Of a stretch of DNA of 36,971 bases, positions 1 to 36,971 are shown one piece after another (within the stretch, counting starts at the first letter, position 1; every line of letters starts with the position of its first letter). The DNA lies in the IMG/VR virus record IMGVR_UViG_3300045972_000034, positions 1 to 36,971 of that record. One strand, given 5' to 3'. The DNA is from a virus. A program made the position numbers and the translations under genes. The notes under the pieces are model-generated. The model had not been told where the DNA came from, ran no database searches, and saw nothing but the letters and a program-made list of their open reading frames with translations.

Positions 1-3000
1 TTTGACTAGAGACAAAGTATGGGGCGTTGCCACCAGCCCAAGCGGTGACGTCAGTCATCGACGGGTCAGCGTTGATTTCCTGACCCTTGCTTTGAACCAA
101 TAGTCTATCTGTAGTAATAGAGTTAGTAGCTATATTACCTGCTGTAACACTATTAGCAGCTAAATTACCTGCAACAATAGATCCTACACCTAAATAAGTT
201 CCAGTATTAGCAGCTGTAATAGGATTAGTAGTAGTAACTGCAGTAAAAGTACCTCCTCCAGCACCTCCTAAACTTACTACTCCTGATAGATGGTTAAGAG
301 TAACTGCAGTATTAGCAACTACAGTACCTGCCCCCGTACCAATACCTGTTATAGCATTGCCTGTAATAGTAATAGCAGTATTTTGAATTGCTTCAGTACC
401 TGCTAAAGCCGCAACATTGGCAGGCTTAGTACCTACACCAGCCCAAGTAGCTGTGGTAGCCGCAGTAGCAATACCTGATTGAATATCTTCAATAGCAGGA
501 GTCCATGCAGAGGCTTTATTACCATACTCACACTTAGGGTGCCAGATATGTAAAGTAGAAGCTGCAGGAATATTTAAGTCTACAAAGTTATAAGTAGCAA
601 GAGAATAACTTGATACTACAATACCTTCGGAAGCAAAGTATTGCCAGGCTGTTGTAGATGCTATTGAATTTACTGTTGGAGTAACATCATTAACGTCAAT
701 ATTACTTGTTAAAGTTCCTGTAGGAACTTTGTGCCATAATGAGAAAGAGTATGTATCATTACCACGTAACGCATTAAAAAATCTAGCGTTAACAGCGATA
801 GTAGTTACTAACTGAATAGCATTACCTGTAGTACCATCTGGTAGTACCATACTTACTAAGGACATTGTAGTACCTACAGGTGCTACAACATTAGCTAGTT
901 CAGAATTCTTAATAAAGTTAGTCCCACCAATATCTATAAGAGCATTATTGATACCTTCAGTACCTATAAGTGCTCCTATATTTGCTGGAGTACCTGAGAT
1001 AGTAGCCCCCCACGCGGCTCTTCTACCTGCTTCAGAAGCTATTTTAGTTAATAGTATTTGTTTTGCAGTATATACAGCAGAAAAGTTAGTACGGAAAGTA
1101 GTACCAACTATAGTTGTATCCCCTGTTAAATTACTCCATAGTACAGGAGTAGTAAGGGTAGCTAGATAAGTAGTTAGATTAGAAATAGCTGTAGTATATG
1201 CAGTTCTTTCTGCAGTAATACTATAAGTAGCTGCTTGAGTATCAATACCACTTTGCTCGCTTGTAATTATAGTATAGTCTTGAATAATACTAGGTTTTTC
1301 ACTAGGGCTAAGAATAGAATCACTAGCAATATTGGCTATAGCAGTATTAGCAGTATTAGCAGCTGTTTGTGCGGTACTAGCAGCGGAAGCAGCGGCAGAA
1401 GCAGCAGCGGAAGCAGCAGCAATATCGCTAACAACTTGTTTACCTGAAGTACCTACAGTCCAAGGACCTGGTATATTAGAGGAAGTCCCTGCTTCTTCTA
1501 ATTGTATTCTACATGCAAATACATAACTATCTGTATTTGGTGAAACAGTATTATATTTTCTAAGTTCTATTTGAATAATAGCAGTAGTAGCAGGTGTATC
1601 AAACCAAGAGTAAATACGTCTATATCCCCCTAAGGCTATTCCTCCATTACCTTCGATATTACTTTCAAGTATATTTCCAAAGGAATGAGAAAGCATTGTA
1701 CCCGCACTATTATACGCCCACATACCTATAGCTACACGACATCTATGTGAACCTACGTATGCACTAGCAATATAACGTTTATTTGGTAAAACAGATACAG
1801 CTACGGGATATGTACCTATAAATCCAGTTTCTAATCCAGCCGCAGTAATTAAACCACCTACTTGGGATAGCCAATAAGTATTATTACTTTCACCAGCACC
1901 ATTATTAAGAGACCAAGAGGCTAAATTAATACCTCGTGTAATAGTACCTCCTACAGTACCACTATCTGCAGTTGTCCAACCTGTAATCCCATTAGCAAAA
2001 TCTGCATTAGGACAAATATTAGTACCTAAGGCTAGTATATTATTATCTACTGAAATACCTGCTGTACCAATACCAGATAGTACTCCGTTACTAATAGTAA
2101 TAGCAGGAATAGTTACAGTGGTAGATGCTACATTTACCCAAGCAGGTGCAGAAGTTGGTGCAACTATAGTACCTATTTCTAACCCATTTTCTGTACGTCT
2201 TGCGGCTGCTATACCAAATGAATAAGTATCTGCAGCACTAATACCTTCAAAAATAAAATAAGAGGCTAAAGTACCTGCTTCACAGGATAAAGAAGAATCT
2301 GCTAAAGTAGGTGCAGTAGTAGTCTTATTCCAATAAATAACAAAGAAATCCGCCTGTTTAGCACCTTGAGTATATGCAGCCCAGTCTAATCTAACATTTC
2401 TAGAACCATCACTATTAGCAGTAATAGTGATACCACTAGGTGCTACATTATTAGTAGGAGCACCAGTAACTCTATACTTAGCTGTACCGTAAGATGTAAA
2501 TAAGCCATCTAAAGGTGTAGGGCTACCATCACATAATGTAAGCATAGGCTTACCAAAGCGTAAAGTATTTACTGCTGTAAATGCTGTAGCCTTATATAAA
2601 CCATGTCTAAACTGTACATCAGTATTACCTGCATTCCAGTTAAAATTAAGTACTGTAGCTGCTATTTTTTGGCCTGTAGTAGAATCATATAGGCCCTGAT
2701 CAGAAATAGTAGCAGTTGTAGTACCTGTAGGATATATATAACCTACTAGATAATACCATCTATTAGTAACTACCGAACTAGGAGTTAATGCAAATAGAAT
2801 ATAGGGGTTGGCATTAATAGCAGCAGTATTAGCAGTACATACGTCTGCACTACCTGCAATACCTACATAGATTTCACAATCCCCAATAGTTCCTGCTGTA
2901 AGCTTAATAGGTATAATATATCTATAGGTAAGGGAATCTTTAATAGGAATATTAGGAGATAAAGGACCTCCTTGCCAACTAGTACTACCTATAGTGCTAG

Positions 3001-4510
3001 AAACCTGCCATACATTTTGATTTTCTCCTGTAGGCATTGCATCTAATACTTGAGTATATGATGTACCTCCATAATTTGTCCAGCTATTAACTCCCGGCCC
3101 CCAATCGCTAGTATTAAGTAGATTACCACTAGAAGTACCGTCAGATACTACTGGTATAGTTTGTTCATCTATCTTAGTAGTATTGTCTGCTAAATATCCT
3201 GCAATTCTAATACTAGTTACAGCATTACTACTGGGAGTATAGGTAAGAGCTGTAGTAGTTACTGTAGTAGAAGTACTAGCAGTAAGTGATCCATTTTCAT
3301 AAACTTTAAAATGTCCTGCATATGCTGTAGGAGTAGCTGTACCTACAGCACTTAAGGTATTAGCAATAATAGAAGTAGGATTAAATAGCCCTGTAGCGCC
3401 TTTTTGTATAGCAGCTGCAGATACATTTAACCAATATGCTGTGGCACTTGCCCCTACTGCACCGCTTGCACCTGCTTTAGCCTTAGTTACAGTAAAACGT
3501 TTAAATACTGTACCATATCCAGAACGTGTAGCCGTAAAATCTACATAACCAATATCAGCAGATAACGCCGTTACAGTCTGAACTCTGCTAGAAGTTGCTT
3601 CAGTACATGTAATATTAGTTTTTACAACTGAAAAAGTCCAATTAGTTGAATCATCTGTACCACCTAGGTATACAGACATTGTAGTAGATGCACCTGCAAA
3701 AGAAGTCACAGTACCCGCAGTATCCGCAGGTACTAAAGCTGCATCATTAGTCAGAACTCCGGTAATAGCATTAGTCCCGTTTGTAGGATACCAAACATAC
3801 CCATTCCAACTATATGAAGTTAAGGAAGAGTCTAAGTATGTATCATACAGTACTTCATCTGGCTGTACATTATTATATGCGGCTAAACCAAATAGGAATA
3901 ACCCAGTACCGTCCCCTATGAATACAAAAGTACCGCTAGAATCCGTCAGCTGTAACTGAGCAGTTGCTCTAGTTTCTGCAGCTGCAGTAACTGTAAAAGT
4001 TGCACCAATAGTTACTTTCCACCAACCATTGCCTATAGCAATAATTTTAATAAAATAATTGCTCCATCCCGCGCCCATAGTAGGAGCAGCAGCAGTACCT
4101 GTTAGAGGATTAAATACATAGTTAATATAACTATTAGCAGTTCCTTGTGCTCCTAAAGATAAAAGTATTTTATAAGTGCAAGAAGGACCTGACTTAACGT
4201 ATATAGTTGTTTGATACTTATTACCAGAAGCAAATGCAGGAGACGAAGTAGCTGTAGCTACTTCATAGAGTCCAAAATAATGCTGATTACTAGTTGCATC
4301 AGGAGTAAATAATAGAGCACTATTACCAAAAGGATCTAAAATAGTACCTGATATAGTTCTAGTAGTATTAAAAACATTTACAGTATCTAATTTAGGATAT
4401 ATATTAGACCAAGGCGCACCTACAGATTTAAACTGTTTTGGGGGACGTAAAACACGAGTACGAGAAGAATCTTCTAATATTAAATCACGTGTATTTATAA
4501 TAGTTGCCAT
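1..4510 (-). CDS. Giant tail fibre / tail-tip host-specificity protein (partial, C-terminus outside window)
   Basis: The frame is open from the ATG at 4510 to the left edge, at least 1503 residues, and its stop lies outside the window. The ATG overlaps the stop of the upstream tail gene (TAATG), so translation is probably coupled. The N-terminal ~250 residues are rich in beta-type W/Y/G/T sequence and resemble carbohydrate-binding-like domains of phage fibres. Near 1330-1440 there is an alanine-rich run (S-A-A-A repeats), then a segment with the LSPSEKP motif. The left edge encodes LAANSVTAGNIATNSITTDR and QEINADPSMTDVTAW, both typical of central tail fibres related to lambda gpJ. Its role is probably receptor recognition at the tail tip. 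The family call comes from reading these motifs; the exact domain order was not computed. Confidence 0.8.
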   Translation of the reverse strand, partial: MATIINTRDLILEDSSRTRVLRPPKQFKSVGAPWSNIYPKLDTVNVFNTTRTISGTILDPFGNSALLFTPDATSNQHYFGLYEVATATSSPAFASGNKYQTTIYVKSGPSCTYKILLSLGAQGTANSYINYVFNPLTGTAAAPTMGAGWSNYFIKIIAIGNGWWKVTIGATFTVTAAAETRATAQLQLTDSSGTFVFIGDGTGLFLFGLAAYNNVQPDEVLYDTYLDSSLTSYSWNGYVWYPTNGTNAITGVLTNDAALVPADTAGTVTSFAGASTTMSVYLGGTDDSTNWTFSVVKTNITCTEATSSRVQTVTALSADIGYVDFTATRSGYGTVFKRFTVTKAKAGASGAVGASATAYWLNVSAAAIQKGATGLFNPTSIIANTLSAVGTATPTAYAGHFKVYENGSLTASTSTTVTTTALTYTPSSNAVTSIRIAGYLADNTTKIDEQTIPVVSDGTSSGNLLNTSDWGPGVNSWTNYGGTSYTQVLDAMPTGENQNVWQVSSTIGSTSWQGGPLSPNIPIKDSLTYRYIIPIKLTAGTIGDCEIYVGIAGSADVCTANTAAINANPYILFALTPSSVVTNRWYYLVGYIYPTGTTTATISDQGLYDSTTGQKIAATVLNFNWNAGNTDVQFRHGLYKATAFTAVNTLRFGKPMLTLCDGSPTPLDGLFTSYGTAKYRVTGAPTNNVAPSGITITANSDGSRNVRLDWAAYTQGAKQADFFVIYWNKTTTAPTLADSSLSCEAGTLASYFIFEGISAADTYSFGIAAARRTENGLEIGTIVAPTSAPAWVNVASTTVTIPAITISNGVLSGIGTAGISVDNNILALGTNICPNADFANGITGWTTADSGTVGGTITRGINLASWSLNNGAGESNNTYWLSQVGGLITAAGLETGFIGTYPVAVSVLPNKRYIASAYVGSHRCRVAIGMWAYNSAGTMLSHSFGNILESNIEGNGGIALGGYRRIYSWFDTPATTAIIQIELRKYNTVSPNTDSYVFACRIQLEEAGTSSNIPGPWTVGTSGKQVVSDIAAASAAASAAASAASTAQTAANTANTAIANIASDSILSPSEKPSIIQDYTIITSEQSGIDTQAATYSITAERTAYTTAISNLTTYLATLTTPVLWSNLTGDTTIVGTTFRTNFSAVYTAKQILLTKIASEAGRRAAWGATISGTPANIGALIGTEGINNALIDIGGTNFIKNSELANVVAPVGTTMSLVSMVLPDGTTGNAIQLVTTIAVNARFFNALRGNDTYSFSLWHKVPTGTLTSNIDVNDVTPTVNSIASTTAWQYFASEGIVVSSYSLATYNFVDLNIPAASTLHIWHPKCEYGNKASAWTPAIEDIQSGIATAATTATWAGVGTKPANVAALAGTEAIQNTAITITGNAITGIGTGAGTVVANTAVTLNHLSGVVSLGGAGGGTFTAVTTTNPITAANTGTYLGVGSIVAGNLAANSVTAGNIATNSITTDRLLVQSKGQEINADPSMTDVTAWAGGNAPYFVSSQ

Positions 4511-6159
4511 TAAATTAATACCTCTACTTCTACTTGTGATGTAACCCAATTAGGTGTTAAACTAACTACCTGACCTAATCTACCCGCACCACTATTATTT
4601 AAATCAAATCTATAATGTCTTAAATAGATCTGCTGTCCTAGCCTCAAGCTAAGTAGTACATATGTACCTGTAAATTTATAAGTGTATCTTTGAACACTAT
4701 AATAAGTTACTAATCTAGTAGCTTCTGCTAATGCATCTGCGGAAGTTATTAAATATGTATCCTTTTGTGCCGGATCTATATCTAAACTATAATTAGCTAC
4801 CATAGTAGGACTAGCTGTATAGGTGCTAGTTAACCATTCTGTAGCTAGCATATCTTTATGGTCTGCAGGTATAGAAGTTAGTAACCCGTCTTGTACTGTC
4901 CAATTTCTGCAATATCCTAATTTTACTGCACCTGTAAAGGGCAGTTTTGAAGATATAGCAAAACTATCGTACAACATATCTGTTTCATCTACAGGGATCG
5001 TACTTGCATAACCAATAGTAATGTTAGCAGTATCCTGAGTTTGAGGTATGCCTACACCATATTGTATTAATTGTAGCTTACCTTCTCTACTAAAGTATAT
5101 TTGTGAACCTATACTTGCAGCCAATGCCTGGCAAATAGATAGTACATTTGTAGTATCTGTGATAATAATACCTACAGGCTTATTATTAGAAGTATTAAAA
5201 GCATTAAAATTTACTAAATCTATATCTGCTGAAGTTAAGCGAGAATTAGCTTTACCATATTGCGTAACTATTACTGCAATTATATTTGCAATAGAATTAG
5301 TATATGCTACACTAGATGTACCAGTAGTAAGATTTATAGTAGACTTTTGTCCTTGTACAGAAACAGTAATTGCACCTGAAGGAGGATATGTAAGTATAAA
5401 AGTACCTATAGTTAAATCTACAGTAGCTCCAGTATATACCGCACTACCTGCTTGATACACTGGTACTCCATTATCACGAATTTCGATAATACTTTCTATT
5501 AGCCCATCATGCACCATGTACTTACCACCGCCAGAATTGGGGTCTATAAGTGTAGGAGTCATATTAAATACTTCTCCAAAAACTAATGGTTTAATAGTAT
5601 CCGCAATTTGCACATTATTAACCCAAGTCCCTGTAGCTGTACCGAATTTAGCTTCAGTTATAGGACTATTTAGTCTTTCAAGTTTATCTCTTAGAGTTAT
5701 ATCTACTACACTACGTTCAGTAGATACGATATCACCAATTATACCATTAAATAATAGTTCAAATTTAGTAGTACTAGTATTAAAATCCGAAGCTACTGCT
5801 GACCAGGTAGGATCACCTAAATATATTTGAATAGGTTTGTTTACCCAAATATATTTATTATTACTTAAATAAGCATCTAGTTCACCATTATGGTTTGCTA
5901 ATCTTATTCCTCCGAAGGTCATTGAAATACCTCCATCCGAAGAAATAGATTCAGTTAGACTTACGTCCCCCATAATTATAGGATTAAAAGAAATTAAAGC
6001 GTCTGTAGTACTAAACCCAGCATTAGAAAAATATACTGGAGTAGAAATATATGACGTACCTAGTCCACTACTATCATATAATATAGTAGCTACAACAAAA
6101 ATTGATCGAATAGAAGAAGGATCCTCTAACCAAGCTTGTGAATAGGCCGAATATGCCAT
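4510..6159 (-). CDS. Tail-tip / baseplate hub-like protein
   Basis: 549 residues. It lies directly downstream of the tape measure gene and upstream of the giant fibre, the position of the distal tail/hub proteins in siphoviruses. The sequence is almost entirely predicted beta-strand, with no signal peptide or membrane segment, which suits a structural tip protein. The start ATG at 6159 follows an AAGGATA ribosome binding site just past the terminator at 6173, so expression depends on readthrough or on an unseen start. I do not recognise a named domain with certainty. The assignment rests on gene order and composition; another minor tail protein is possible. Confidence 0.6.
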   Translation of the reverse strand: MAYSAYSQAWLEDPSSIRSIFVVATILYDSSGLGTSYISTPVYFSNAGFSTTDALISFNPIIMGDVSLTESISSDGGISMTFGGIRLANHNGELDAYLSNNKYIWVNKPIQIYLGDPTWSAVASDFNTSTTKFELLFNGIIGDIVSTERSVVDITLRDKLERLNSPITEAKFGTATGTWVNNVQIADTIKPLVFGEVFNMTPTLIDPNSGGGKYMVHDGLIESIIEIRDNGVPVYQAGSAVYTGATVDLTIGTFILTYPPSGAITVSVQGQKSTINLTTGTSSVAYTNSIANIIAVIVTQYGKANSRLTSADIDLVNFNAFNTSNNKPVGIIITDTTNVLSICQALAASIGSQIYFSREGKLQLIQYGVGIPQTQDTANITIGYASTIPVDETDMLYDSFAISSKLPFTGAVKLGYCRNWTVQDGLLTSIPADHKDMLATEWLTSTYTASPTMVANYSLDIDPAQKDTYLITSADALAEATRLVTYYSVQRYTYKFTGTYVLLSLRLGQQIYLRHYRFDLNNSGAGRLGQVVSLTPNWVTSQVEVEVLI

Positions 6160-30337: not shown

Positions 30338-30817
30338 ATGGCATCAATTAAGCGTTTCACGATTTATGACATGGATGGAACTATCGTCGATAGTTCACAT
30401 CGTTATCGCACACAAATTGGCGTTAATAATAAGGTGGCAATTGATCTGCAACACTGGCGAGATAATCAACATTTGGCAATGCTGGACCAACTGTTGCCAC
30501 TAGCCGAACAATATAAACTCGATCTGGCAGATCCCGAGTGTTATGTGGTAATTGCTACGGCCCGCGTTATGAACGAGCCCGACTGGCAGTTTGTGCGCGA
30601 AGTATTAGGCGAGCCTGATTATTTTATCTCACGAAAAGAAGGCGATTCTCAATCGGGCAAAACCTTGAAAATCAACGGCTTGCAAAAGTTTTTCAATCTC
30701 AAGAATTTTAAAGGAGTTTCCGCAGTATTTTACGAAGATAACGTCGAGTATCTTAAGGCAGTTTGCGATCACTTTGGCATTACCGGCGTTTATATTCCAT
30801 CAGTTCAGGGGCATTAA
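30338..30817 (+). CDS. HAD-superfamily phosphatase
   Basis: 159 residues. Motif I DMDGT with Asp11/Asp13, motif II IATAR (Thr74), a lysine near 108-111 for motif III, and motif IV FYEDN (Glu133/Asp134). All four HAD motifs are present with a short cap insert (20-65). Phage HAD proteins of this size are often polynucleotide 3'-phosphatases or nucleotidases in DNA/RNA repair or nucleotide scavenging; the substrate cannot be told from sequence. Confidence 0.85.
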   Translation: MASIKRFTIYDMDGTIVDSSHRYRTQIGVNNKVAIDLQHWRDNQHLAMLDQLLPLAEQYKLDLADPECYVVIATARVMNEPDWQFVREVLGEPDYFISRKEGDSQSGKTLKINGLQKFFNLKNFKGVSAVFYEDNVEYLKAVCDHFGITGVYIPSVQGH

Positions 30818-33168: not shown

Positions 33169-33528
33169 ATGACTGCTACCACTACCAAGACCGTTAAGGC
33201 CGTTAACTACACTGCCGAACAAACTGTCGCAATGGTTGCCGCTTATGTCGCGGCTCCCACTAAGGAAACTGTCGAAACTCTCGCCGTTAGTATGGGCAAG
33301 ACTGTTCGTAGTATCGTTGCCAAACTGAGCCGCGAAAAGGTTTACGTTGCAAAGGAATACACCAGTAAGACTGGCGAAAAGGTCGAAAAGAAGGATACCA
33401 CTGCTGATGCGATCGGTGCTGTTCTGCGTCTGAGCGAGGCCGATATTGAATCGCTCACGAAGGCGAATAAGTCGGCACTACGTGCCATCTTTGTGGCGCT
33501 TGCGTCCAGCAAGCCGATTAACGACTAA
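33169..33528 (+). CDS. HTH DNA-binding protein, paralogue B
   Basis: 119 residues, a paralogue of the protein at 26676. The same HTH (about 15-60: TKETVETLAVSMGKTVRSIV) and a helical C-terminus (LSEADIESLTKANKSAL). The two differ at many surface positions, and their codon use also differs, so the duplication is not recent. It has three stacked promoters, which makes it one of the best-expressed early genes. Likely regulator of the phage; candidate ligand of the iteron arrays (inference). Confidence 0.7.
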   Translation: MTATTTKTVKAVNYTAEQTVAMVAAYVAAPTKETVETLAVSMGKTVRSIVAKLSREKVYVAKEYTSKTGEKVEKKDTTADAIGAVLRLSEADIESLTKANKSALRAIFVALASSKPIND

Positions 33529-34964: not shown

Positions 34965-35156
34965 ATGTTTATCTGCCTTTATGCCGATCATAATAACGTC
35001 CAGCTTCACGGCATCGGTGCAACCCCTGATGATGCATATAATACTGGAGAGTTTGAGGTAAACGATATTCCTCGCGCGGAATGCGTATTCTATGAAACGA
35101 AATATGAAAAGCCTGCGACTATTCGCATTATCCCTGAACAAATCGTTTTGGTCTAA
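34965..35156 (+). CDS. Small protein of unknown function
   Basis: 63 residues from the ATG at 34965, with GAAGGATT before it. Beta-alpha pattern (FICLYADHNNVQLHGIGATP) in the style of the other single-domain early proteins; no family recognised. Last gene before the terminators at 35178. Confidence 0.65.
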   Translation: MFICLYADHNNVQLHGIGATPDDAYNTGEFEVNDIPRAECVFYETKYEKPATIRIIPEQIVLV

Positions 35157-35177
35157 GGGAAAAATTAGATTGAAACT

Positions 35178-35197
35178 GGCCCGCAAGGGCCTTTTTT
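35178..35197 (+). terminator. Intrinsic terminator of the P7 cluster
   Basis: GGCCC-GCAA-GGGCC followed by six T residues. Confidence 0.9.
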
Positions 35198-35208
35198 ACG
35201 TCTGTACT

Positions 35209-35238
35209 ATACTAATAAGGGTAAACCCTTATTAGTAT
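35209..35238 (+). terminator. Second hairpin of the ACTAATAAGGG family
   Basis: ATACTAATAAGGG (35209-35221) pairs with CCCTTATTAGTAT (35226-35238), TAAA loop, followed by TTTATTTG. It doubles the terminator before it. Confidence 0.75.
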
Positions 35239-35251
35239 TTTATTTGCGCCA

Positions 35252-35281
35252 ATTATACCACGTATAATTGGGCCGTAGCAA
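35252..35281 (-). promoter_or_regulatory. Leftward promoter-like element E8
   Basis: On the minus strand TTGCTA, 18 bp, TATAAT, then TGGCGCA. The palindrome CCAATTATAC-CAC-GTATAATTGG is complete; the -35 box has decayed. Confidence 0.65.
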
Positions 35282-35330
35282 GCTGTTTTACATGCTGTTA
35301 CATCTACTGCGCAAATTTCCCAATCGACTT

Positions 35331-35398
35331 TGTAACAATGTGTAAAACCGCTGGACACGTGCCTGAGCGACGTGGTATAATAAAAGTAGGTGTATACT
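35331..35398 (+). promoter_or_regulatory. Half-array iteron promoter P8 with an embedded sigma70 promoter
   Basis: TGTAA copies start at 35331 and 35341 (10 bp); two TTACA copies in the opposite sense lie at about 35288 and 35298. TATACT at 35393-35398 is 52 bp after the last iteron. Independently TGGACA (35352-35357), 18 bp, TATAAT (35376-35381) forms a second promoter. No gene follows either. Confidence 0.65.
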
Positions 35399-35414
35399 AC
35401 GCTAAGCTGCCCAA

Positions 35415-35448
35415 GCAGCGCCAGTGCTAAAGCTAGTCAAGTGCAAAA
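35415..35448. repeat. Repeat A, left copy
   Basis: GCGCCAGTGCTAAAG followed by GTCAAGTGCA. The same pieces recur at 36774-36812 (GCGCCAAT..., CAGTGCTAAAG, GTCAAGTGCA). GTCAAGTGCA occurs a third time at 35479. Region 35399-35500 otherwise holds GCTGC-CCAA-GCAGC hairpin and no gene. Confidence 0.6.
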
Positions 35449-35500
35449 CTGATTATGTGCCGCAGGGTCGACCTATCGTGTCAAGTGCAAAAATGAAGTC

Positions 35501-35529
35501 TTGAAAAATTTTTTGAAAAATATTATAAT
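35501..35529 (+). promoter_or_regulatory. Rightward promoter 1 of the noncoding block
   Basis: TTGAAA, 17 bp, TATAAT. Confidence 0.65.
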
Positions 35530-35598
35530 TTCATCTTGAAATCGAAAAGTAATTCAACCTAACCAAACCAACGATTATGTAATTAACCAAACCTTAAA

Positions 35599-35626
35599 TT
35601 GACGTAAATTTGCTATACAATAATAT
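35599..35626 (+). promoter_or_regulatory. Rightward promoter 2 of the noncoding block
   Basis: TTGACG, 16 bp, TAATAT. The weakest of the set. AACCAAACC occurs twice just upstream (35561-35592). Confidence 0.5.
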
Positions 35627-35659
35627 TTCGTACATCAACATACCGGCGAAAATCCTGGC

Positions 35660-35688
35660 TTGAATCGCGAAGTGTTCTGAGTTATAAT
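35660..35688 (+). promoter_or_regulatory. Rightward promoter 3 of the noncoding block
   Basis: TTGAAT, 17 bp, TATAAT. Confidence 0.7.
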
Positions 35689-35750
35689 AGATTCATCGGT
35701 TGGGAAAGCAATTCAAATAAGAAGATGGACAGAGAAACGAAATTTTTTAC

Positions 35751-35779
35751 TTGTTTGCCAACTGAATTTGTTATATAAT
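35751..35779 (+). promoter_or_regulatory. Rightward promoter 4 of the noncoding block
   Basis: TTGTTT, 17 bp, TATAAT. Predicted start about 35786, at the left edge of the structured RNA. Confidence 0.65.
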
Positions 35780-35785
35780 ATATGT

Positions 35786-36690
35786 ATGGAATGCGGGTGT
35801 AATGCGCTGCTGAAGAATGCAATTGCTTCGGCTATATTACTTAATTGACGGGAATTCGTCGAAAGCGGAGCGTCAGCCCACTAGTATTTTTTAGTTGTTT
35901 GTTCAAGCATTTGCTAGAACAAGTGGTTACATGATTGTAGCTAGATTACTTCCAGCGACGATGAGATGATTTTCAGTCTGCGTTCTACCTTCTAGGGTTT
36001 GGACACCAGTGCCTTGATTCAATATAGCGTTCCTAGGCTGTAACGTGCGAAAGTATAACGTCTTGGACAAACAACTAAAGTGTACTAACTAAATAAGTAC
36101 TAGGCCGGGAGTAAGTAAGTCCAAATGTTTTTGTTAAAACAGAAGGCATAACATACTGGAAAGTCAAATGTTAGTACACCTCTTAACCTTCTGACGAGCT
36201 AGTGCAAATCTAGCGAAACTCTAGGGTCCCGTAAGCTGTTGCTGGTACAATTCCCAAGTACCACCAGCTTGCGACCTAGGGTCAAGGTTCTCGACAAATA
36301 GATCCAATCCTCCTATCGAGAGCATTCTGAGGATTGGTAGCATAACAAGGATAAGCGTTGTTATGTGGTCGTATAGCTTCTTGCAGGATTGGTATACCTG
36401 CTTGTACACATTAACCTATTCTTGGCCTGTAGTTACTTGCAGGAGCAGGTAGGGTGACTTAGGGACTGATCCCCCTAACGATCGAAGGAAGCATATCCTA
36501 TGAACGTCTGAGATTGCTAGAAACTTTACCTACCTATATGCTTAGGCTGTATTAGACAAGTTTCTAGAATAGTAAGATACGTTTCTACAAGCAGCCGGTG
36601 CAGACCTAACCAGTAGCAGCCGTTCCAAAAAAGTTGGTAACTTTCTAAGCCCCTATATCGCAAGGTATAGGGGCTTTAGTTTTGCCCATA
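35786..36690 (+). ncRNA. Large structured noncoding RNA (GOLLD/ROOL-type candidate or new family)
   Basis: About 900 nt with no credible gene but dense complementarity. Helices seen: 35809-35815/35826-35832; 35846-35850/35871-35875; a long-range 18-bp helix 35890-35907/36062-36079 with one G-U; 36233-36238/36265-36270 enclosing GGTAC/GTACC; 36304-36312/36329-36337 (9 bp); 36341-36348/36358-36365 (8 bp); 36383-36387/36397-36401; 36459-36464/36473-36478; 36489-36496/36536-36543 (8 bp) interlocked with 36517-36526/36558-36567 (10 bp), a pseudoknot; 36630-36635/36639-36644. It starts after strong promoters and ends in an intrinsic terminator. Phage-borne RNAs of this size and style are the GOLLD and ROOL families, which form multimeric cages. 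I cannot run a covariance search, so family membership is open. Confidence 0.75.
36647..36683 (+). terminator. Intrinsic terminator of the large RNA
   Basis: Eleven-bp stem AAGCCCCTATA (36647-36657 with 36666-36676), 8-nt loop, followed by TAGTTTTG. Confidence 0.88.
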
Positions 36691-36701
36691 CTTTTCTAAA
36701 T

Positions 36702-36738
36702 TACTCAAGTCTATACCCCTAGTACTCAAGTCTATACC
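36702..36738. repeat. Tandem direct repeat TACTCAAGTCTATACC
   Basis: Two exact 16-bp copies start at 36702 and 36723, 21 bp apart (two helical turns). A partial third (TTACTCAAATAGGTA) lies near 36944. Possible operator pair just after the RNA terminator. Confidence 0.7.
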
Positions 36739-36773
36739 TCCTGCACCTTAGTCTGTTTTTAGCCAGCTTGCTG

Positions 36774-36812
36774 CGCCAATTTTACAGTGCTAAAGTGATT
36801 TTTGTCAAGTGC
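36774..36812 (-). promoter_or_regulatory. Leftward promoter-like element E9 within repeat A, right copy
   Basis: On the minus strand TTGACA (36808-36803), 18 bp, TAAAAT (36784-36779), then TGGCGCA. It points into the large RNA, so a transcript from it would be antisense to that RNA unless stopped by the bidirectional hairpin at 36647. Confidence 0.65.
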
Positions 36813-36971
36813 AGAGTTCTAATCCTTTTCGGAAACGACGAAACCCACCAACATACAAAGTATGGGCGGGATGCAAGTGCGTATACGCTGGACGGACTAG
36901 GGCACGGAAGCTGCAACGTCAAGACGGAGCTATAGTGCTAAAATTACTCAAATAGGTAGGGTGTCTTAATT
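36813..36971. other. Intergenic sequence to the window edge
   Basis: No gene seen. Contains a small hairpin CATAC-AAA-GTATG inside a CCCACC/GGCGGG context (about 36845-36871) and the palindrome GCGTATACGC near 36880. It may be the leader of a rightward gene beyond the window. Confidence 0.4.

Follow-up and report, generated by a model that had tools for sequence, protein, structure and literature searches.

The window, by which we mean the whole stretch of 36,971 bases analysed here (the record of an uncultured freshwater phage), very likely contains a member of an undescribed phage RNA family that carries a hammerhead ribozyme. Our sequence analysis establishes a transcription unit that leads from a TATAAT box to an intrinsic terminator, contains a conserved 5' domain (domain A), a long-range helix (stem X) and a type I hammerhead, and has no coding function (Table 1). 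We read the region as a structural RNA gene of a T5-like phage whose transcript would be cut by its hammerhead and whose pieces would work as a two-part RNA, and we put the probability of this reading at roughly 0.6. The family would be a giant RNA of the GOLLD/ROOL type that is unrelated to both and offers two handles apparently missing there: a ribozyme, which gives a precise and testable processing prediction, and a tRNA of a single identity, which points to translation or to a tRNA-targeting defence.

Table 1. Coordinates of the RNA gene, its parts and the syntenic upstream gene in the window
Feature	Position	Strand	Evidence or description
DNA-binding protein gene, phrog_1725	33169..33528	+	syntenic upstream of the RNA
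-10 box TATAAT	35774..35779	+	sequence; same place upstream of domain A in most relatives
Whole noncoding RNA, about 900 nt	35786..36684	+	fold z, absence of coding signal, module order as in relatives
Domain A	35795..35879	+	model R3; three-way junction, GGGU/GCCC closing two helices, conserved linker CUUAAUUG
Stem X, 5' arm	35882..35907	+	26 nt, 85% complementary to the 3' arm
Stem X, 3' arm	36062..36087	+	26 nt, 85% complementary to the 5' arm
Type I hammerhead	36183..36293	+	detected by model R1, which excludes the window, with 81 bits (E=1.4e-23)
Hammerhead stem I	36185-36190/36284-36289	+	6 bp
Hammerhead core CUGACGA	36191-36197	+	invariant core CUGANGA
Hammerhead stem II	36198-36202/36210-36214	+	5 bp
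Hammerhead core GAAA	36215-36218	+	
Hammerhead stem III	36218-36225/36275-36282	+	8 bp
Hammerhead GUC triplet	36281-36283	+	
Predicted self-cleavage site, C36283/A36284	36283..36284	+	after the C of GUC
3' part of the RNA, about 400 nt including the terminator	36284..36646	+	specific to the lineage of the window
Intrinsic terminator	36647..36684	+	13-bp stem (36647-36676), then TAGTTTTG

A structured, noncoding transcription unit

A first-pass annotation of this DNA had proposed a highly structured RNA without a credible gene, and both points are borne out. On the sense strand between 35795 and 36684 the longest open reading frame has 29 aa, which is shorter than in 98% of dinucleotide shuffles. 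ORF calling at 70 aa returned none across 35187-36971, and the sole frame of at least 60 aa in the region is one of 62 aa on the minus strand. The plus strand folds with a minimum free energy (MFE) of -287.9 kcal/mol (z = -4.2, compared to z = -2.7 for the minus strand), and a second, independent fold run gave z = -4.9. A search of the window for tRNAs and tmRNAs found none.

Transcription is predicted to start at about 35786, immediately 3' of the TATAAT box, which is preceded at a spacer of 17 nt by a weak -35 element (TTGTTT, 35751-35756). The four upstream promoters proposed earlier exist as sigma70-like patterns on the plus strand at 35352-35688, but their number is not much above chance: counted over both strands, 9 matches were observed versus 4.3 expected. 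These patterns are weak evidence for promoters, and the TATAAT box counts instead. The intrinsic terminator of the earlier description was recovered, and the same stem, followed by a GTTTTG tail, also ends the RNAs of many relatives.

A family of RNAs in T5-like phages

The window RNA was aligned to the ORF-free gaps of 50 related records, which led to shared motifs. A DNA search of these records yielded short, weak pieces only. The 5' motif TTAATTG..GAA..GAG..CAGCCC was scanned over 2.9 million viral contigs and gave 77 loci, eight of which were chance matches and were left out. The remaining 69 loci constitute the family, and all of them lie in uncultured T5-like phages. Complete members measure 588-1438 nt (median 925) and follow one order: TATAAT box, domain A, stem X around a variable domain, domain B, an optional tRNA-Glu, the hammerhead, a variable 3' part and a terminator with GTTTTG tail. 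In the window RNA we recognised domain A, stem X, the hammerhead and the terminator; neither domain B nor a tRNA was recognised there. The fold z-scores of several members are modest (-1.1 to -2.5). The comparison with homologues suggested by the first-pass annotation was carried out in part: homologues were found, their helices covary and they carry no coding signal.

The group is called T5-like because of its terminase and the T5 D5-like regulator in the neighbourhood of the RNA. The terminase of the window is 47% identical to those of Vibrio phages of about 110 kb, and the terminases of the relatives reach up to 72% identity to that of the window. Relatives of the DNA-binding protein encoded upstream of the RNA also match the T5 D5-like regulator. 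This gene lies on the same strand 1.4-1.9 kb upstream of the RNA in eight records (L387, L395, L396, L400, L421, L422, L423 and L431) and 2.6 kb upstream in the window; the shared neighbour in the eight records indicates that the RNA element is positionally stable.

By blastn against cultured phages, four RNAs of the superfamily had no match, and 50,697 phage records gave none. Occurrence in bacteria or prophages was considered and rejected: 84,980 species genomes contained 58 pattern matches, none of which was confirmed by R3 and none, among the nine on which it was run, by R1. A search for closer relatives of the window by a GAC-type pattern gave no convincing match beyond the two known before.

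Domain A, stem X and the 3' part

Domain A is the most widespread part of the RNA and stands at the very start of the transcript. Across the family it follows the pattern GGGUG ... CUUAAUUG ... CAGCCC. The model R3, built from an alignment of 36 relatives that excluded the window, finds the domain in the window with 37.6 bits (E=2.9e-9). Within this alignment 92.2% of the cells are paired, 7 of the 15 pairs show double-sided changes, and the double-sided cells number 47 compared to 11.7 in shuffles. Domain B is a second copy of domain A, seen as a second R3 match in about ten relatives (E 2e-5 to 0.3). A group I intron, whose P4 region the 5' domain resembles, was dismissed, as Rfam shows no such match at E<=10.

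The long-range helix described in the first-pass annotation corresponds to stem X. Its two arms in the window occupy the place where relatives carry a covarying helix of 16 bp that joins domains A and B, with perfect or near-perfect pairing in nine distinct sequences. In each sequence the helix was selected for being the best complementary stretch; chance is excluded by its constant position (9 nt after domain A and 0 nt before domain B), not by the pairing alone. Across members, 13 of the 16 positions switch to another type of pair. Some members lead from domain A directly to domain B, without stem X. The 3' part of the window RNA, folded alone, is weakly more stable than its shuffles (z -1.25), and the 3' half did not align with that of the main group.

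A conserved type I hammerhead

A complete hammerhead, which had escaped the first-pass annotation, lies in the middle of the RNA. The model R1 that detects it rests on an alignment of 25 distinct relatives without the window. None of the core bases (CUGANGA, GAAA and GUC) varies among the 25, and GGGUC is likewise present in 25 of 25. Pairing is found in 91.6% of the cells, with double-sided changes at 21 of the 28 pairs and in all three stems; the covariation score is 0.511 versus 0.167 in shuffled alignments and no more than 0.11 in controls with slid strands. R1 matches 58 of the 69 family loci, plus two that are truncated by contig ends, and as a rule there is one hammerhead per unit. In a further 1.6 Mb of sequence from related phages, almost every strong R1 match fell in a locus of the RNA family, and the exceptions were weak or lay in comparable noncoding gaps, as in L386. 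We did not find the hammerhead in nine loci with domain A (L194, L206, L214, L228, L234, L237, L243, L244 and L246), which indicates that cleavage is not essential in all lineages.

Folded alone, the segment has exactly the hammerhead junction as its MFE structure (-38.1 kcal/mol). The MFE structure of the full-length window RNA retains stems II and III and pairs stem I elsewhere, and is 1.5 kcal/mol better than the fold in which the hammerhead is enforced. A switch of stem I by the upstream strand, read from this structure, was discarded as a mechanism, since in the relatives it is neither conserved nor above chance. Of the Rfam models, Hammerhead_3 matches the segment best, with a weak score of 19.2 bits compared to a gathering threshold of 48.5, probably because of the long insert in stem III. 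By the chemistry of the hammerhead class the cut falls after the C of GUC, and the window RNA is likely to cleave itself at the predicted site.

The motif has the same complete core, three stems and GUC triplet as known type I hammerheads, and its chain is open at stem I as in these. It differs in a conserved extension of stem III of about 50 nt, which has its own hairpin and often a CCC loop, and in being embedded in a large structural RNA and scoring below the Rfam gathering cut-off. Phage hammerheads as such are already known (PMC3088659). In the open-access literature, with subscription journals lying outside the search, we found no report of a hammerhead within a giant phage RNA. The present family places conserved hammerheads within a large folded RNA, beyond gene borders and circular RNAs, and an RNA of this kind helps to address the role of self-cleavage in DNA phages.

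An optional tRNA-Glu

In 27 of about 64 loci ARAGORN detected a tRNA 3' of domain A, and it was always Glu(UUC). Wherever both are found it precedes the hammerhead, mostly by 4-9 nt and otherwise by 78-100 nt. Two loci which belong to the sub-clade of the window by their domain A (L112 and L115) have the tRNA-Glu 5' of domain A, in a unit of its own that has a separate TATAAT box and a domain-B-like motif. Arrays of tRNAs and tmRNAs lie near some members.

Comparison with known large RNAs and tRNA-associated ribozymes

Few natural RNAs whose function is unknown are as large as GOLLD and ROOL, and the GOLLD cage is a 14-mer. A theta ribozyme-tRNA unit consists of an HDV-like double pseudoknot 3' of a tRNA. 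The proposal that the region holds a large structured phage RNA stands; of the two options that came with it, a divergent GOLLD or ROOL and a new class, the evidence favours the new class. The RNA as a whole has no match in Rfam. A cmscan of 35000-36971 against all 4227 Rfam families at E<=10 listed neither GOLLD nor ROOL nor OLE. The GOLLD model (RF02032) had no match in the window, and its best score in 24 other family records was 4.4 bits (E=7); the ROOL model (RF03087) matched none of 25 records (the window and these 24), and gave no match in control genomes either. On the basis of these Rfam searches we reject a divergent GOLLD, ROOL or OLE.

Both GOLLD and ROOL form cages and adjoin tRNA islands (PMC12286853). 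The present RNA resembles GOLLD as a large structured phage RNA of similar length near tRNA islands, and ROOL as a large phage RNA of unknown function with the same kind of neighbourhood. As to the association with tRNAs known from GOLLD, the 27 loci with tRNA-Glu show it for the family, and the window itself has no tRNA. Besides the missing model match, the family differs from GOLLD in its conserved 5' domain and its hammerhead, for which we found no GOLLD report. It differs from ROOL, which its model likewise fails to link to the family, in having the hammerhead and domains A and B, undescribed for ROOL in PMC12286853. Theta ribozymes are HDV-like, adjoin phage tRNAs and have been proposed to act in the processing of 3' trailers (PMC10879173). 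They share with the present RNA a self-cleaving ribozyme associated with a phage tRNA, but have an HDV-like fold instead of a hammerhead; moreover, in the present RNA the tRNA is optional and invariably Glu, and the hammerhead is a single component of a far larger RNA.

Possible modes of action

Among several readings of the working form, a two-piece structural RNA appears the most likely, at slightly better than even odds. As expected from the hammerhead class, the RNA would cut itself once between C36283 and A36284, during or after transcription, leaving a 5' product of about 498 nt with a 2',3'-cyclic phosphate and a 3' product of about 400 nt with a 5'-OH. Both pieces may remain co-folded as an ornate two-part RNA, which could conceivably serve as an infection scaffold or a sequestering particle, as has been proposed for GOLLD and ROOL. 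The 5' piece of many relatives would carry the tRNA-Glu. Cleavage might release strain or lock the RNA in its final fold, and the ends produced would resist the usual 5'-end-dependent decay. Only tentatively do we suggest a new class of phage RNA machine, a particle of two RNA pieces that arises by programmed self-cleavage. The hammerhead would be its built-in maturation step, and the tRNA-Glu would be a module for display, which could act, for instance, as a decoy or a substitute when a host defence targets tRNAs.

A GOLLD-like cage, that is, a closed homo-oligomeric particle in which the hammerhead would cut a linker after assembly and the tRNA-Glu would be enclosed or displayed cargo, is in our view unlikely, given that the GOLLD and ROOL models provide no match in sequence or structure and that the 3' half varies more among members than a fixed cage suggests. 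It would agree with the size class, the phage origin and the partly tRNA-rich surroundings, all as in GOLLD and ROOL, and with the tRNA-Glu within 27 family loci, as the GOLLD linker sometimes contains tRNAs (PMC12286853). The unit could instead be a precursor that makes phage tRNA-Glu and whose ribozyme removes the downstream part, in line with the proposal for the theta ribozymes that go with phage tRNAs (PMC10879173). Glu(UUC) is indeed the sole tRNA in the RNA and often sits just before the hammerhead, but more than half of the loci, including the window, have no internal tRNA, a type I cut would fall at least about 90 nt past the tRNA end and leave the ribozyme attached to the tRNA, and such a precursor could do without a conserved domain A, stem X and a 3' RNA several hundred nt long. 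This makes a tRNA precursor quite improbable.

The presence of domain A at the start of the transcript, and its being the most widespread part, would suit a leader or anti-termination RNA whose 5' domain acts on RNA polymerase or on downstream genes. We think this very unlikely, because the unit has its own terminator, the next gene is in the opposite orientation in many relatives, and conservation extends far beyond a leader. Least probable of all is a circular or mobile, retrozyme-like RNA in which the hammerhead would serve replication or spread. Circles require cuts at monomer length and the rule is one hammerhead per unit; the locus is syntenic with the same regulator gene and not scattered, and no copy in a bacterial genome was confirmed. 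The points in its favour are that hammerheads are known from circular mobile RNAs, that one contig has two RNA copies (L216 and L235) and that one protein of the window phage may be polynucleotide-kinase-like.

Additional observations in the window and related phages

Polynucleotide kinases act on 5'-OH and cyclic-phosphate ends, such as hammerheads produce. At 30338-30817 the window has a weak match to the phage polynucleotide kinase family phrog_415 (E=4e-8), with no Pfam match. An open frame of more than 1500 aa on the minus strand (2-4549) extends beyond the left end of the record; this stretch is probably coding rather than noncoding.

L216 and L235 are one contig of 100,412 bases with two different giant RNA copies, each with tRNA-Glu and hammerhead. 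L112 (14900-16950) and L115 (200-2070) contain two or three noncoding units in tandem, each with a TATAAT-like box. Their long unit begins with domain A and is well conserved between both; the hammerhead was not found in it, and in L115 a terminator closes it, again with the GTTTT tail. A compact sub-family (L249, L256, L257, L258, L262, L263, L269 and L272) has no recognisable domain A; as read in L249, L257 and L262, a TATAAT box is followed by a short structured RNA and the hammerhead, with the terminator directly after. Two GC-rich phage contigs, L251 and L265, have three hammerhead-like motifs each and are apparently unrelated to the RNA family.

The tRNA arrays of related phages include tmRNAs at L112:3-453, L133:2445-2806 and L226:5526-5941, with the tag peptides ANDNTFALAA, ANDSIFAVAA and ANDSQFALAA, respectively. 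Both the permuted tmRNA model and the betaproteobacterial one match those of L112 and L133, a hint that the hosts are betaproteobacteria.

A palindromic repeat, GACCCTAARC / GYTTAGGGTC, is absent from the window and dispersed in L397, L219, L209, L119 and others, with up to 10 copies per 14-20 kb; in many relatives it occurs within and outside the RNA, and the hammerhead strand GGGTCAGG is similar to it. Finally, an intergenic element GCGCCAATTATACAGTGCTAAA..TTGTCAAGTGC occurs in the window at 36771-36808 (minus strand) and at 35252-35281. It is a sigma70 promoter pattern on the minus strand and is also found 3' of the RNA in many relatives.
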